36,157 nucleotides of DNA. Source: a virus. Below are positions 16,374 to 36,157 of the stretch, one piece after another (the first letter of the stretch is position 1; the number at the start of each line of letters is the position of its first letter). The stretch covers positions 1 through 36,157 of IMG/VR virus record IMGVR_UViG_3300035704_000015; one strand, given 5' to 3'. The position numbers and the translations under genes were made by a program. The notes beneath the pieces are model-generated. The model ran no database searches, was not told where the DNA came from, and worked only from the letters and a program-made list of their open reading frames with translations.

Positions 16374-16841
16374 ATGTTTGCTCTTTTATCTCCTACTACA
16401 TGGAAAATAGGAATAGGTATTCTTTTACTGGCCGCAATAGCTTATGGTATTCATCATTTTTTAGGATATGAACAAAATATTGGATACGAAAAAGCAGTAG
16501 CGGAGTATACTCAAAAGCAATTAATTGCAGAACAAAAAGCGAGAGCTAAAGAACAAGCGTTAAATACACAAATAGTGGAGGCTCAAAATGCAGCAAATGA
16601 ACGGCAGCAACAATTGGATAAGGTTACTTCTTCTCTCGCCATTACTAATAAGCAGTTGCACGACACTACCAATACCCTCCGCAACCGTTTGTCCAAAAAT
16701 TCCCCCGCCACCAACATTAACACAGCCGATACCGCCCTCTCTGTATTCAGTGACTGCACAGACCGATATTCAGAGCTGGCAGAAACGGCTGATAAGTATA
16801 CCAACGAAATAAAGATGTTACAGGATGCATGGCCTAAATAA
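16374..16841 (+). CDS. Rz: Rz-type i-spanin
   Basis: The gene encodes 155 residues. An N-terminal membrane anchor (IGIGILLLAAIAYGIHHFL, about 12-30) is followed by a long Gln/Glu/Lys/Ala-rich coiled-coil periplasmic part. It anchors in the inner membrane and, with Rz1, fuses the two membranes at the last step of Gram-negative lysis. The Rz1 reading frame lies entirely inside it. The last eight bases overlap the convergent gene at 16834-17007, so the late and early transcripts collide here without an obvious terminator. Confidence 0.9.
   Translation: MFALLSPTTWKIGIGILLLAAIAYGIHHFLGYEQNIGYEKAVAEYTQKQLIAEQKARAKEQALNTQIVEAQNAANERQQQLDKVTSSLAITNKQLHDTTNTLRNRLSKNSPATNINTADTALSVFSDCTDRYSELAETADKYTNEIKMLQDAWPK
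16588..16812 (+). CDS. Rz1: Rz1-type o-spanin lipoprotein, nested in Rz
   Basis: The gene encodes 74 residues in a different frame wholly within Rz. The N-terminus has a hydrophobic signal (IRLLLLSPL) ending in a lipobox, LLISSC, with lipidated Cys24, followed by a proline-rich chain (PKIPPPPTLTQPIPP). Both features define Rz1 lipoproteins. A second Met at residue 4 could also be the start. It would sit in the inner leaflet of the outer membrane and bind Rz. Confidence 0.92.
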   Translation: MQQMNGSNNWIRLLLLSPLLISSCTTLPIPSATVCPKIPPPPTLTQPIPPSLYSVTAQTDIQSWQKRLISIPTK

Positions 16842-28726: not shown

Positions 28727-30703
28727 ATGAAAACGATCCACTCTCTTGAGATGATTAAGGCCCCTTCTTTTTTAAAATATCTTCCCATATGGTTAGTATG
28801 GAAATATTCCCCTTCTGAGACTTCCAAAAAATTATTAAAAATACCGTTCTATATTAATGGCGCTCCAAGGAAACATGATCATGGGAGTGAAAAAGATATT
28901 CAATTATTGACTGATTTTGAGAGTGCAAAATTATTTGCTATCTCTCATGGATTTAGCGGAATAGGAATAGCTCTTCTTCGGTGCTACAACTTCGCTGCAT
29001 TAGATTTTGATAATTGTATTTCAGAAGACGGCCAAATAAATCCAGAAGTAGAAGAATGCATATTAGGAACGTATAGTGAAATAAGTCCCTCCGGGAAAGG
29101 AATCAGAGCTTTTGTAACAGGCGATTTAGGTAACAGTAAAAGTCATGCCAATGAACAGCGATTTGGAATAGAGTTATATAGTTCCACCGGCTACGTCACT
29201 TTCACTGGCCACACAACTGAACTCTGTCAGTTAACTGACTCAGAAAATATCATCACAGCCCCCAACAACGCGTTATCTAAATTAATGGATGCGCGTTTCT
29301 CCTCCGAAAGAAATAGAGATAGTCTCTCCAGTTTAACTTCAACTTCCTTAGGGCTTGATGAAGATCAATTGCTGCATATTCTAACATATCAAAATCCAGA
29401 TGCCGGTTATTCAGAATGGCTATCTACTGGTATGGCGCTCCATCATGAAACTTCCGGCGCTGAAGAAGGTTTTCAACTTTGGGACGACTGGTCTCGTAAA
29501 AGTTCTAAATATAGTGGAGAAGAGTATAACCGTCATAAATGGAACTCGTTCCATGAAGATGATAAACACGGTATTACTATTAGATCCTTAATTAAGCATG
29601 CGAATTCTCAAGGGGCCAGTATTCATTCAGGAGAATTAACCAGAGATGATTTCTCTCCTATTACTCTTGTTGAAAATGATAAACCCATTGAGAAGCATAC
29701 TTCTTTCTTCCATATTCGATCTGCAGAAGAATTTGTACAGATTATTCGTCCAGTTTCTTGGCTCATTAAAGGATTCCTCCCAAAAGCGACATTAGGTATT
29801 CTATATGGTGAATCAGGTTCCGGTAAATCTTTTGCCGCTCTTGATATATGTGCTGCCATTAGTCGCCAGCAAGAATGGAACGGCATAAAACCACAAAAAT
29901 CTAAATTTCGTATCTTATATATAGTTGCTGAAGGTATTAATGGTTTTTCTCAACGTATTACCGCGTATTGCCAACAACATGACATTACGACCAAAGATCT
30001 TCCCATTGATATTATTAGTGACGTTCCTCCTAATTTAATGGATGGTGTCAGCGTTAACCATTTATTGATTGATATACAAGAGCGTGGGTTGTATGACTTA
30101 ATTGTCATGGATACCTTTGCCCAGGTTACTTCCGGTGCTAATGAAAATAGTGGTGAAGATATGGGTAAAGCGCTTGGGTATTGCAAAAAGATTGCGCTCT
30201 CTTCTAATGCCATGGTACTGCTCATTCATCATAGTGGAAAGGATACCTCCAAAGGAGTACGTGGTTGGTCTGGTGTCCATGCAGCTGCTGATGTGGTCAT
30301 AGAAGTCATGAGATATGACGTAGAAAGATGCATTAAGGTAATAAAACAAAAAGATGGTATCGATGGTATGGAATATGGCTTTAGTTTAATCCCTATCTAT
30401 TTAGGTACAGATGAAGATGGAGATGATGTGACCAGTTGTATTGTCGATTATCATCCCGTTGTTAAGTCCGCTAAAAAACCACAATTAAAATCGTTCCAGA
30501 AACTCGTTTTTGACGTCGTTATGGAGTTCACTCCAATGTCTTGGATCTCCATAAATAATGTCATTGATTTAACTATTGAGCGTATTCCTAAAGAAGAAGG
30601 GACGCGAGATATCCGTCGCCAGAATGTTAAAAGAGCAATAAATTCAGGGATTGGCGTGTTTTTAGAAGAAAATGAAAACGGAGAAATCCGTGGTATACAT
30701 TAA
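28727..30703 (+). CDS. Primase-helicase (primase N-terminus, RepA-like AAA ATPase)
   Basis: The gene encodes 658 residues. The N-terminal 185 residues are primase-like (ALDFDNC with D93/D95, then SPSGKGIRAFV 120-130). Residues about 205-300 fit a PriCT-type region (LTYQNPDAGYSEWLSTGMAL, WDDWSRKS). Residues about 345-560 are a RecA/RepA-like helicase with Walker A GESGSGKS (361-368), Walker B LIVMDTFAQV, and LIHHSGKD as the sensor motif. The C-terminus looks winged-helix-like. It would prime and unwind at the phage origin, and a remarkable dyad region follows directly. It is co-transcribed with the YdaS-like gene. Confidence 0.9.
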   Translation: MKTIHSLEMIKAPSFLKYLPIWLVWKYSPSETSKKLLKIPFYINGAPRKHDHGSEKDIQLLTDFESAKLFAISHGFSGIGIALLRCYNFAALDFDNCISEDGQINPEVEECILGTYSEISPSGKGIRAFVTGDLGNSKSHANEQRFGIELYSSTGYVTFTGHTTELCQLTDSENIITAPNNALSKLMDARFSSERNRDSLSSLTSTSLGLDEDQLLHILTYQNPDAGYSEWLSTGMALHHETSGAEEGFQLWDDWSRKSSKYSGEEYNRHKWNSFHEDDKHGITIRSLIKHANSQGASIHSGELTRDDFSPITLVENDKPIEKHTSFFHIRSAEEFVQIIRPVSWLIKGFLPKATLGILYGESGSGKSFAALDICAAISRQQEWNGIKPQKSKFRILYIVAEGINGFSQRITAYCQQHDITTKDLPIDIISDVPPNLMDGVSVNHLLIDIQERGLYDLIVMDTFAQVTSGANENSGEDMGKALGYCKKIALSSNAMVLLIHHSGKDTSKGVRGWSGVHAAADVVIEVMRYDVERCIKVIKQKDGIDGMEYGFSLIPIYLGTDEDGDDVTSCIVDYHPVVKSAKKPQLKSFQKLVFDVVMEFTPMSWISINNVIDLTIERIPKEEGTRDIRRQNVKRAINSGIGVFLEENENGEIRGIH

Positions 30704-30822
30704 TTCTTTGTAAAAACGTCAACATTCAAAAACTCACTTTTCGCACAAAAACGCACTTTTTACATCTTTCGTCAAAAATGCAAAGTTGCACTTTCCAAAA
30801 AATAAAGATAAACAACCATTTT

Positions 30823-30878
30823 AAACGCATCTTTCGCACTTTTTCGCACTTGTGCGTTTTTGTGCGAAAGATGCGTTT
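30823..30878. repeat. Inverted repeat 1 (17-bp arms with inner stem)
   Basis: The arms AAACGCATCTTTCGCAC (30823-30839) and GTGCGAAAGATGCGTTT (30862-30878) are perfect complements. Inside, TTTTT faces TTTTT, then CGCAC pairs with GTGCG around a TT loop. A near copy of its core (30828-30874) lies at 30938-30983. Confidence 0.95.
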
Positions 30879-30890
30879 TGGGGTAAATCC

Positions 30891-30936
30891 TGTACATATA
30901 TACAGTTTTTTACCAAAACCACTGTATATATGTACA
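30891..30936. repeat. Inverted repeat 2 (15-bp arms)
   Basis: TGTACATATATACAG (30891-30905) and CTGTATATATGTACA (30922-30936) are perfect complements with a 16-base loop. Each arm is itself almost palindromic. It lies at the centre of the larger dyad region. Confidence 0.95.
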
Positions 30937-30937
30937 A

Positions 30938-30983
30938 CATCTTTCGCACTTTTTCGCACTTGTGCATTTTTGTGCAAAGATGC
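30938..30983. repeat. Inverted repeat 3 (near copy of repeat 1)
   Basis: The core of repeat 1 is repeated with two changes: G to A at 30966 and loss of one G before the AAAGATG arm. The arms CATCTTTCGCAC (30938-30949) and GTGCAAAGATG (30972-30982) still pair with one bulge, and the inner stem keeps four of five pairs. Confidence 0.92.
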
Positions 30984-31009
30984 AAAAGCACCTCTTTGTG
31001 CAACTTTGA

Positions 31010-31035
31010 GGGTATATATGTATACATATATCCCC
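31010..31035. repeat. Inverted repeat 4 (26-bp palindrome)
   Basis: The centre ATATATGTATACATATAT (31014-31031) is a perfect 18-base palindrome, extended by GGG/CCC on both sides with one mismatch. As an AT-rich palindrome it could melt or extrude easily. Confidence 0.93.
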
Positions 31036-31122
31036 AAAGATGCAAAGTGATTGACGAAAAGTGTAGGTATAAAAAAGATAATATTTATTCTTTAGCAATT
31101 AAAAAATAGAAAGACCTGGAAA

Positions 31123-31293
31123 ATGAAAAAAGATATTAAAATCAAAACATTGTATGAAGTACAAATAACTGATTTTGAAGCTTTCTGGAAAAATGAAAAT
31201 AAACGAAAAAGAAATTGGTATGGAATCTTTATAAAATTTGGATCTTATTTTTTTATTGGGTATTTCGTTTTCTGTATTTTATTTTTTAAATGA
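31123..31293 (+). CDS. Small membrane protein
   Basis: The gene encodes 56 residues. The N-terminal 32 residues are charged (MKKDIKIKTLYEVQ, then NENKRKRNW) and the C-terminal 24 form an aromatic-rich membrane span (FGSYFFIGYFVFCILFF). It is the only good frame in this interval and has TGGAAA before the ATG, a weak site. It would be a tail-anchored inner-membrane protein. Function unknown. Confidence 0.6.
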   Translation: MKKDIKIKTLYEVQITDFEAFWKNENKRKRNWYGIFIKFGSYFFIGYFVFCILFFK

Positions 31294-31535
31294 ATAACTA
31301 CTGGAAACTTACTAAGGTGCCGCGAAAGTGTGTTTTATTTTAGTTTTCGGTTTTGTTTAAAATGATTAGGATTGGATTAGAACGAAATAGAGCTGTCTCA
31401 GAGGCTTTTAAAATGATAAGGGGCTACGCTGATATACCTTTAGTTTTAAAAGCCTTGTAGGTACCTTTAAAGCCTTTTAAACAGTGTTATATTTTTATTA
31501 ATTTACAACGATTTGAATGAATATTTAAAAAGATA
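31294..31535. other. Non-coding interval upstream of the late promoter
   Basis: I see no gene here. It contains a perfect 12-bp inverted repeat, AGGCTTTTAAAA (31402-31413) and TTTTAAAAGCCT (31444-31455), with a 30-base loop. A partial third copy of the arm (CTTTAAAGCC) lies near 31465-31474. No T-run follows, so a terminator is not supported. It may be a regulator-binding or RNA-structure element ahead of the promoter. Confidence 0.5.
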
Positions 31536-31600: not shown

Positions 31601-31669
31601 TCGTATATGCCCATCGTATCTGTTAATCGCCAATCGTATTCGTACTTGTCAATCGTATTTGTAATCGTT
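31601..31669 (+). repeat. TCGTAT repeats in the late leader
   Basis: TCGTAT occurs at 31601, 31614, 31634 and 31653, the last three as ATCGTAT, with further AATCG copies between and after them. The spacing between ATCGTAT copies is 20 and 19 bases. The repeats lie between the promoter and the first late gene, so they would be in the leader RNA as well as in DNA. They could bind a late regulator or act as an RNA signal. Confidence 0.65.
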
Positions 31670-31687
31670 AAAAAAAAGGAGAAACCA

Positions 31688-31996
31688 GTGATACAACCAA
31701 TCCACGACCTAGTGTTCATCGAAAAGAAAACATATAAAAAATTAAATAGCGTAATCGAATTGCCCGAGAACTTTTTAACCACTGAACATTCAGGAATAAT
31801 CGTATCCATAGGCCCGGGAAAAACATATTCAAACGGAGAAATCATACCTCTTAGTGTTAACGTAGGGGATGAAGTAATATATTCACAACACGCCGGTCAA
31901 ACATTCAGACAAGATGGAAAAGAATATATTGCCATAAGAGAACACGATATTTATGCCATTATAGCTAGAGAAAATTATGATCCCGCTGCGGAATAA
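31688..31996 (+). CDS. GroES-like co-chaperonin 1
   Basis: The gene encodes 102 residues from GTG at 31688, which has AAAGGAGAAACCA upstream. The frame is open to 31607 but that part lies in the leader repeats. The Cpn10 layout is clear: IQPIHDLVFIEKK at the N-terminus, a mobile-loop region (about 15-33) with hydrophobic SVIEL, then SGIIVSIGPGKTYSNGEIIPLSVNVGDEVIY and the last strands REHDIYAIIA. E. coli GroES has the same order (RPLHDRVIV ... GEVKPLDVKVGDIVIF). It would cap GroEL to fold phage proteins such as the coat. It overlaps the second GroES-like gene by 20 bases. Confidence 0.88.
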   Translation: MIQPIHDLVFIEKKTYKKLNSVIELPENFLTTEHSGIIVSIGPGKTYSNGEIIPLSVNVGDEVIYSQHAGQTFRQDGKEYIAIREHDIYAIIARENYDPAAE

Positions 31997-32282
31997 TTTA
32001 ATCGTTAAAATAGATGATAGCATTCCGAATATCGGGGATATTTTTATATCTCCAGATATTTCAAAATGGAAGCATGCAGATATTCAGTTAGGAAATAGTG
32101 GTACCGTTATTAGAGTTGGAGAAGGTAATAGACATCCAAAAACAGCGGTATTGATGAAACCCCAATGCAGGATCGGGGATAGAGTTAGATTTTCAGAATT
32201 AAGTTATCCAACGTTTTCCGTAGACAATATTAAATATGTGATCATCAGTGATCAAGATGTTGTAGGCGTCGAAAGAGCTTAG
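31977..32282 (+). CDS. GroES-like co-chaperonin 2
   Basis: The gene encodes 101 residues with the same layout but diverged: IPLRNNLIVKIDD, a mobile-loop candidate NIGDIFISPDISKW (18-31), the strand SGTVIRVGEGNRH, then KPQCRIGDRVRFSEL and final strands IKYVIISDQDVVGVE. It overlaps gene 1 by 20 bases, so the two are co-translated. Low similarity to gene 1 suggests separate roles or a mixed ring rather than simple gene dosage. A T4 gp31-like function is inferred. Confidence 0.75.
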   Translation: MIPLRNNLIVKIDDSIPNIGDIFISPDISKWKHADIQLGNSGTVIRVGEGNRHPKTAVLMKPQCRIGDRVRFSELSYPTFSVDNIKYVIISDQDVVGVERA

Positions 32283-34316: not shown

Positions 34317-36157
34317 TGGCATATGATTCGAAATCAAGAGCAAAAGGTAAGGGAGGGGTAAGTCCCGTTGCTGAAGAAGCTATTAAGCGCATGAATATTG
34401 CGATTGAAGCGGATTCAGGAAATCGATCGTCTATGTTAGAAGATTTGCGCTTTTCTCACGGAGAGCAATGGCCTGATGAAATTCGTATGCAACGTGAATT
34501 GGATCGTAGGCCATGTCAAACAATTAATAAAACTGATACTTTTGTTAGATCTGTAGTAAATAATATGCGACAACAACGACCGAGGATAAAAGTTTATCCG
34601 GTTGCTGATGGCGCAGATCAACAAATTGCTGCCGTCATTGAAGGTATATTTAGGCACATAGAAGTTCAGTCAAATGCGGATTTGGCATACGATACTGCAG
34701 CGGATAATCAAGTACGTATGGGATTAGGATATATCCGTGTTGCTACAAGATATTTAGATGAAAAGAGTTTTGATCAAGAGATATACATTGATAGAGTACG
34801 TAATCCTTTTAGTGTGTACTTTGATCCTTCTAGTACTCAGCCAGATGGATTAGATGCTGAATGGGTATTAATTGTAGATCGTATTCGAAGAGAAGAATTT
34901 AAGCGACTATATCCAGACGCAAGTGAAGTCGATTTCGTATCTGATGGCTATGGTGATGCATCCGGAGCATGGAGTACTAAAGAAGAAATCATGATCGCTG
35001 AATATTGGCGGTGTGAATATAAATCGGATATTCTTTTTAAATTAGCTGATGGCACGACTGTATTTAAATCCGATGCACCAGAAGGTAAAGGTGTTGGCGA
35101 TTTCGTAGGCGATTCAATTGTAATTGAGTCACGTGAATCAGTTAAACGTGTCATTAAATGGTCCAAAGTTACTGCGTCTCAAGAATTAGAAAAAAGAGAT
35201 TGGGGCGGTAGATATATTCCAGTGATTCCTGTATATGGCGCAGAGAATTACGATAATGGAATGATAGTTAGATACGGAATGGTGCGAAATCTAAAAGATC
35301 CGCAACGTATGTACAATTATTGGAGAACACAAGAAACTGAATTCATTGCCCTGGCACCCAAAGCGCCTTGGTTAGTTGCAGAAGGTCAAATTGAGAATCA
35401 TGAAGATCAATGGGCTACTGCGAATATTAAGAATCATAGTACTTTGACATGGAAACCCGTAATGGCGGAAGATGGTAGCATATTGCCGCCTCCTTCTCGT
35501 ATTGCTCCTGTACCAATTCCTGCGGGAAGCGTACAAGCTGCTATTGGTGCAAGTGAAGATTTAAAAGCTGTTGCTGGTATGTTTGATCCATCATTAGGTG
35601 CGCCAGGACAAGAGACAAGCGGCACTATGGTTTTGCAACGTCAAATGCAATCCGATATGAGTAATTATCATTTTTATGATAATTTAACACGGTCTATTCG
35701 TGCAATTGGTATAGTAATGTTAGACTTGCTAAAAGTATACTATACTGGTGAAAGAGTTATACGTATAATTGGGGCCGACGGAAATCCGGATACTGCAACA
35801 ATAAATCAAGAACAAGCTGGCGGCATTATTAATGATCTATCTGTAGGCAGGTATGATGTTGTAATGGAAACTGGTCCTGGATATGATACGCGTAGACAAG
35901 AATCAGCTGCGGCGATGTTAACAGCAATGCAACATATGCCACAATTAGGACAAGTTGCGGGAGATTTGATTATAGGACAAATGGATTGGCCTGGAGCTAA
36001 AGCGATTGCCGAGCGTTTGAAAATGACTAATCCTTTAGCGAATATACAAGATAACTTACCTAAAGATTTAGATCCTAAAGCGCAAGGTGTTATTGCACAA
36101 TTAATGGGTCAATTGCAACAAACTAAACAGCAATTACAACAGAAAAAGAAGCTAAAT
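34316..36157 (+). CDS. Portal protein (P22 gp1-like), N-terminal part
   Basis: The frame is open from the ATG at 34316 to the window end. The true end is at 452 on the circle, giving about 705 residues. P22-portal features are seen: an N-terminal helix with DSGNRSSMLEDLRFSHGEQW, then RRPCQTINKTDTFVRSVVNN and RQQRPRIKVYPV, and FSVYFDPSSTQPDGLDAEW. It is the dodecameric DNA gate and packaging-motor anchor. Within the terminal repeat, the 10-base gap at 36142/36143 shifts the frame for the last five codons, so that tip should not be trusted. Confidence 0.93.
   Translation, partial: MAYDSKSRAKGKGGVSPVAEEAIKRMNIAIEADSGNRSSMLEDLRFSHGEQWPDEIRMQRELDRRPCQTINKTDTFVRSVVNNMRQQRPRIKVYPVADGADQQIAAVIEGIFRHIEVQSNADLAYDTAADNQVRMGLGYIRVATRYLDEKSFDQEIYIDRVRNPFSVYFDPSSTQPDGLDAEWVLIVDRIRREEFKRLYPDASEVDFVSDGYGDASGAWSTKEEIMIAEYWRCEYKSDILFKLADGTTVFKSDAPEGKGVGDFVGDSIVIESRESVKRVIKWSKVTASQELEKRDWGGRYIPVIPVYGAENYDNGMIVRYGMVRNLKDPQRMYNYWRTQETEFIALAPKAPWLVAEGQIENHEDQWATANIKNHSTLTWKPVMAEDGSILPPPSRIAPVPIPAGSVQAAIGASEDLKAVAGMFDPSLGAPGQETSGTMVLQRQMQSDMSNYHFYDNLTRSIRAIGIVMLDLLKVYYTGERVIRIIGADGNPDTATINQEQAGGIINDLSVGRYDVVMETGPGYDTRRQESAAAMLTAMQHMPQLGQVAGDLIIGQMDWPGAKAIAERLKMTNPLANIQDNLPKDLDPKAQGVIAQLMGQLQQTKQQLQQKKKLN
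35982..36157. repeat. Terminal direct repeat, right copy
   Basis: This is the right copy of the repeat at 1-186. It differs by one synonymous base (36109) and lacks ten bases found at 162-171 of the left copy, between short ACAACAG/ACAACAAG repeats. Dropping it closes the genome at about 35,981 bp. Confidence 0.9.

Follow-up and report, generated by a model that had tools for sequence, protein, structure and literature searches.

What function is served by the dense nest of repeats that follows the primase-helicase gene in the virus IMGVR_UViG_3300035704_000015? The record is 36,157 bp long and was analyzed in its whole length, which is referred to here as the window. Its first bases are seen again at position 35,982, and the terminal overlap (1-176 versus 35982-36157) consists of 127 identical bases and then becomes noisy. 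The 176-base overlap therefore denotes a complete phage genome, circular or terminally redundant, whose circular unit measures about 35,981 bp. The final 50 bases of the window resemble assembly-end noise. P22-like portal and terminase genes are encoded, with the terminase 1.3 kb to the right of the nest, together with a leftward early block of SNF2-type helicase, family A DNA polymerase, Enc34-type ssDNA-binding protein and DUF2800 exonuclease. The nest occupies the gap between the stop codon of the primase-helicase gene (30703) and the next possible small ORF at 31123. Two overlapping ORFs between the nest and the terminase genes (31607-31996 and 31977-32282) both match the GroES/Cpn10 co-chaperonin family; a search for viral relatives of the GroES-like ORF found none. 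No DNA similarity to deposited phages was found around the nest.

The preliminary description had placed a nest of about 330 bp after the primase-helicase gene, and this was borne out, with the repeats located at 30733-31063. A total of 17 TGC(A/G) sites form the iteron array (30736-31045), distributed on both strands and many of them 8-10 bp apart; the first ten are at 30742, 30752, 30779, 30787, 30826, 30835, 30845, 30853, 30863 and 30872, and the other seven at 30945, 30955, 30963, 30973, 30981, 30999 and 31041. Hairpin A (30823-30878) possesses perfect 17-bp outer arms (17/17; 30823-30839 and 30862-30878), an inner CGCAC/GTGCG pair, unpaired TTTTT/TTTTT spacers and the centre CGCACTTGTGCG. 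Its half-sites form pairs, but pairing is impossible for the spacers, where TTTTT is opposite TTTTT, and thus repeated protein sites fit better than one designed stem. The duplication of the hairpin core, which had also been noticed, was confirmed as a 41-nt direct copy at 30938-30978 that is 95% identical to 30828-30868. Between the two copies of the iteron hairpin sit two AT-rich palindromes in inverted orientation, which constitute hairpin B (30890-30937; arms 30891-30911 and 30916-30936, 90%). Palindrome C (31010-31035) is 26 bp long and reads GGGTATATATGTATACATATATCCCC. The outer flanking arms, 30761-30775 (TACATCTTTCGTCAA) and 31051-31065 (TTGACGAAAAGTGTA), are centred at about 30913, and further flanking complementary pairs are found at 30729-30756/30852-30879 and 30877-30903/31012-31038. 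The earlier claim that the dyads share one centre holds for some of them, centred near 30.91 kb, whereas others centre between 30.80 and 30.96 kb; the nest is a repeat cluster and not one concentric structure.

Nothing else in the genome rivals this cluster. The minimum free energy of 30733-31063 is -116.4 kcal/mol on the plus strand and -137.0 kcal/mol on the minus strand, against -61.1 +/- 4.6 kcal/mol for dinucleotide shuffles (z -11.9 and -16.3), which makes it the strongest structure of the genome. Hairpin A is the strongest tight-loop hairpin of the whole 36-kb window, and the second strongest is also located inside the nest. The 17 TGC(A/G) sites compare with a mean of 3.1 per 310-bp window, and no other window reaches 17. 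The 8-mer repeat score is 94 for the nest versus 48 for the next best of 1,417 windows. When the 20-mer TTTCGCACTTTTTCGCACTT was compared to viral contigs, only two (L166 and L167) were matched. These two show the same tandem TTTTTCGCAC stretch, but the inverted arms are missing.

The cumulative GC skew of the circularised genome has its maximum at 16,623 and its minimum at 30,030, within a plateau that extends from 28.3 to 31.6 kb. This minimum is consistent with an origin close to the nest. It is confounded, however, by the direction of transcription, as gene orientation switches at about 28.5 kb, close to the minimum, and is weak evidence when taken alone.

The neighbouring gene (28727-30703, plus strand) encodes the presumed initiator, a protein of 658 aa, and ends about 30 bp before the nest. 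Primase, helicase and winged helix are all predicted on this one polypeptide. An AEP primase with PriCT_2 covers residues ~8-294 and matches the NrS-1 primase-polymerase (residues 8-294; PDB 7ola, E 6e-37), and a RecA-like helicase of RepA type covers residues ~304-586; AAA_25 and PriCT_2 were the only Pfam domains found in the protein. The AlphaFold2 model has a pLDDT of 89, and its helicase part resembles the RSF1010 RepA structures 1olo and 1g8y with a Z of 23 over 220-227 residues. The C-terminal residues 586-658 are confidently predicted to fold as a winged helix (H-H-H-b-b), with a pTM of 0.76 for the isolated domain. In the model, the putative recognition motif RD-I629-RRQN places I629 just before the third helix of this domain. 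Among the structure matches listed, the P4 alpha protein did not appear, and those of the winged helix are generic.

Directly after the stop codon, relatives of the primase-helicase with 23-48% identity have short repeats of both orientations in a compact array. The closest relative (L006, 48% identity) has its array in the same place. The repeat itself differs by lineage, with TGCCCCA, TGCAACA, TGCTTCA, TGTATTCA and TGTCTCC among its forms. For each locus we took the most repetitive 250-bp window and counted it if it fell from -60 to +450 bp of the end of the RepA-type gene; this was the case in 75 of 141 nonredundant loci, with 10.4 expected by chance. Roughly half of the homologous loci have no array within 450 bp of the gene, and in a few, such as L023 and L024, it has another location. 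Relatives of the terminase TerL (L086-L165) mostly lack a close homologue of this primase.

A hairpin with a variable stem and the centre CTTTAG or CTATAG is part of the array in 77 of the 193 nonredundant loci. Its median distance downstream of the gene is 108 bp, and its layout is iteron, iteron, C-rich, CTTTAG/CTATAG, G-rich, inverted iteron and inverted iteron. Loci with a hairpin so centred 50-210 bp 3' of the RepA-type gene are defined here as the CTWTAG-hairpin origin group. Of the downstream sites of CTTTAG, the commonest hexamer at these centres, 52 of 68 are centres of a hairpin, compared to 6 of 110 sites in other parts of these loci; for CTATAG the counts are 22 of 22 and 4 of 47. 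The reverse complement of CTTTAG, CTAAAG, centres a hairpin at 7 of 21 downstream sites (6 of 193 elsewhere), and thus CTTTAG is orientation-biased. In an alignment of 26 sequences the centre supplies the only invariant letters, namely C, T, T, A and G. Compensatory changes, on both sides, were found in eight of nine stem pairs, and pairing amounts to 81% compared to 59% after shuffling; since the sequences were selected for complementary arms, the argument is carried by the location and orientation controls.

The CTWTAG element is found in Roseobacter phages CRP-811, CRP-821 and CRP-831, Rhizobium phage 16-3 and the Polaromonas plasmid pPNAP03. Prophage-like loci also have it, in genomes sampled from the orders to which a Limnohabitans and a Novosphingobium genome belong. 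The three Roseobacter phages (L189, L494 and L493, respectively) are cultured, and their deposited annotation leaves the array unmarked. No such hairpin was found downstream of the RepA-type gene in Caulobacter phage GB2A, Roseobacter phage CRP-406 and Microcystis phage Mae-JY30. Two loci without an array beside the gene have the same hairpin elsewhere, at +1804 bp (L023) and -7875 bp (L024), and the element may therefore be able to move. The window has no CTWTAG hairpin and is therefore a variant and not a member of the CTWTAG-hairpin group. In the E. coli plasmid p1RM9154-C1 (L499) and a 17-kb Klebsiella plasmid (L500), AAGTGAGG and GTGCGGCA iteron arrays follow the RepA-type gene, with the inverted iterons flanking CCTGTATACA instead of CTWTAG. 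Palindrome C of the window also has TGTATACA, and the CCTGTATACA/TGTATACA centre perhaps represents a second hairpin class.

The letters of the repeats follow the protein. For iterons of the form TGN[b]GCA, the one form covered by this rule, base b follows residue X of the RD-X-R motif in 33 of 33 nonredundant cases: Gln or Asn goes with A, Arg with G, and Thr, Met or Leu with T. Gln and Asn with A, and Arg with G, are classical major-groove contacts. Among loci with three or more of these sites no further than 250 bp from the end of the gene, the rule held in all 23 used for training and in four of four examined after it had been written down. Arrays displaced up to ~600 bp further downstream, which were not used in forming it, fitted in six of six nonredundant cases, with zero mismatches in 70 loci overall. 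After clustering at 55% identity, 11 of 11 combinations fitted (permutation p 1.6e-4); the clusters in which a combination arose number two for T-to-T, four for Q-to-A and two for R-to-G. Of the 753 control windows, three contained sufficient sites for the comparison, and the rule fitted none of them. The best explanation of base N is residue X+4, one turn further on in the helix. This link is looser than that between X and b: Asn is found with A in nine of ten cases, and His with G or A. Some relatives are outside any simple code, including L052 and L071, where RDKR occurs with GGATCA. A Mantel test of iteron against C-terminal similarity gave a weak correlation (partial r 0.14, p 0.0015), and the residue-level rule is far sharper.

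The initiator of the window has Ile at X (I629) and Asn at X+4 (N633), and by the rule a hydrophobic X should go with T at b. All ten GCG in the nest follow T, while GCA follows T 14 times, C ten times and A once. Leaving out CGCA, which is TGCG read on the other strand, 24 of 25 instances of GC(A/G) have T in front, compared to 32% genome-wide. The window thus appears to agree with the rule, in a post hoc comparison in which the 5' TG is not kept and no iterons of the strict form TGN[b]GCA are present.

The start of the nest just after the primase-helicase stop codon and the skew minimum at 30,030, together with the conserved array position and the residue-base rule in the relatives, lead us to consider the nest as most probably the replication origin of a phage whose genome is circular or circularly permuted, an oriV-type initiator-binding region directly 3' of its own initiator gene. 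An origin had been favoured in the preliminary description, which named GC skew, folding, conservation and compensatory changes as ways to judge it. The two checks that it set for refuting an origin both spoke for it: the skew minimum is in favour within the limit given above, and the array architecture is kept next to the 3' end of the homologous gene in relatives, the closest one included. Both strands also fold 12-16 standard deviations below dinucleotide shuffles, and the changes on both sides of the stem were found in the relatives' CTWTAG hairpin. At the level of sequence, the locus displays what is expected of an iteron-type origin, namely a cluster of sites near helical spacing and an adjacent initiator gene with a predicted DNA-binding domain. 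A match between iteron sequence and initiator specificity is seen in the 33 relatives and, for the window, suggested post hoc only.

An unlikely alternative is a regulatory region, in which the winged helix, or LexA at palindromes like CTGT-N8-ACAG, would control downstream transcription. The two palindromes of hairpin B do resemble the LexA/SOS box (CTGT-N8-ACAG, CTGTATATATATACAG), with one mismatch at 30890-30905 and two at 30922-30937; 0.38 matches are expected in the whole window and both are located in the middle of the nest, and a winged-helix domain would be able to act as a repressor. Two such matches also arise in 6 of 100 shuffles, however, and 30600-31460 yielded no sigma-70-like promoter. 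The array is positioned 3' of the initiator gene, with which it stays in relatives despite differing downstream genes, and an operator needs neither so large an array nor a conserved CTWTAG hairpin. The palindromes themselves could be a melting region, SOS operators, or both.

The very strong predicted folding of both strands would also suit a structured small RNA, an attenuator or a terminator, but such a role is very unlikely. No Rfam family was matched in the window and no intrinsic terminator was found within the nest, and the strand that folds more strongly is antisense to the primase gene. The unpaired T-run spacers of hairpin A are as expected for spaced protein sites and not for a single RNA stem, and the repeat letters of relatives track a DNA-binding residue. 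A packaging (pac) or recombination/resolution site, to which the nearby portal and terminase genes and the terminal redundancy of the record lend some weight, is just as improbable, because the element tracks the RepA-type helicase gene and not the terminase, also in prophage-like loci and on plasmid pPNAP03, and no resolvase or recombinase was found in the subset of window ORFs searched. Least probable of all is a centromere-like partition or incompatibility cluster of a plasmid-prophage state. Iteron arrays of plasmids do serve also as centromeres and incompatibility determinants, but no ParA/ParB-type protein was found among the ORFs searched, and the repeat sequence is linked to the DNA-binding domain of the initiator itself, which makes this protein the likely ligand.

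For the nest as a replication origin, the computed anatomy, the conserved position and the residue-base rule of the relatives allow us to infer how binding, melting, helicase loading and priming may proceed. The C-terminal winged helix would put its recognition helix, with I629 and N633, into N-N-N-T-G-C-(A/G) sites. These sites are about one helical turn apart and in opposing orientations. Cooperative binding of initiators could lead to the loading of RepA-like helicase rings. The AT-rich palindromes between the iteron blocks would then open and expose hairpin DNA, on which the fused AEP primase may start primers. The exposed element would be the CTTTAG/CTATAG hairpin in most array-bearing relatives and a duplicated, larger palindromic version in the window. 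The invariant centre of the relatives' hairpin may be a site of helicase loading or a start of primers.

Several known systems resemble parts of this arrangement. In SaPI Rep/ori and SCCmec Cch2, the initiator helicase is described to have a C-terminal DNA-binding domain for short iterons, which are located immediately after the gene that encodes it (PMC7581432, citing Ubeda 2007). The window likewise has iterons directly downstream of the presumed initiator gene, and SaPI5 also fuses primase and helicase, whereas the helicases there are of DUF927 or D5/Primase_Cterm type and the one here is of RecA-like RepA type. No report of the CTWTAG hairpin or the residue-to-base rule was found for SaPI/SCCmec origins in open-access PMC. 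The stem-loop of pRN1 was shown to be necessary for replication (PMC4234260). As with the proposed origin of phage BIP-1/BPP-1, this stem-loop is conserved while its sequence varies and is found shortly after the gene, and the pRN1 initiator combines AEP primase(-polymerase), helicase and C-terminal winged helix, as predicted for the window protein. It differs in possessing an SF3 helicase, in contrast to the RepA/DnaB/KaiC-type RecA-like fold here, and in lacking iterons, whereas iteron arrays are found here and an invariant hairpin centre in the relatives.

At the oriV of RSF1010 (IncQ), an AEP-type primase acts at hairpin ssi sites and a separate initiator binds iterons (PMC4434180, PMC4234260), and RepA, RepB' and RepC are separate proteins (PMC4434180), whereas all three roles are predicted on one polypeptide here. 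The RepA-type hexameric helicase fold is predicted in common (Z 23), while the array here is directly 3' of the gene. RSF1010 iterons are longer than the ~7 bp found here. One ssi hairpin per strand serves for priming in RSF1010, a role that the hairpins present in the nest may have. The alpha protein of phage P4 is a primase-helicase whose C-terminal winged-helix origin-binding domain binds repeats (PMC4234260). The window protein resembles it in being a predicted primase-helicase with a C-terminal winged helix, repeat binding by this domain being known for P4 (ori, crr), but has an AEP primase where P4 has a Toprim (bacterial-type) one. The P4 origin is not known to be of this hairpin type. 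The architecture resembles the SaPI, pRN1, P4 and RSF1010 origins, but no compared system combines this helicase type, array, hairpin and rule.

We therefore consider it somewhat more probable than not, on comparative sequence grounds, that these loci represent a widespread and apparently undescribed family of origins in phages, prophages and some plasmids. A search of the open-access PMC literature, which proves no absence, found no published description of this element or combination. The family would be characterized by RepA-type winged-helix initiators, iterons directly 3' of their gene and an orientation-biased CTWTAG hairpin with an iteron-built stem. Two residues of the recognition helix, i and i+4, would determine its specificity by reading two adjacent bases. 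Both origin and specificity would then be predictable from the protein, and the window would be a divergent member in which duplicated palindromes replace the CTWTAG hairpin. For the majority of phages known only from sequence, no origin has been assigned. If the proposal is true, the position rule, the hairpin signature and the residue-to-base rule would allow origins to be called in hundreds of phages and prophages, and would predict which replicons are incompatible or cross-react.
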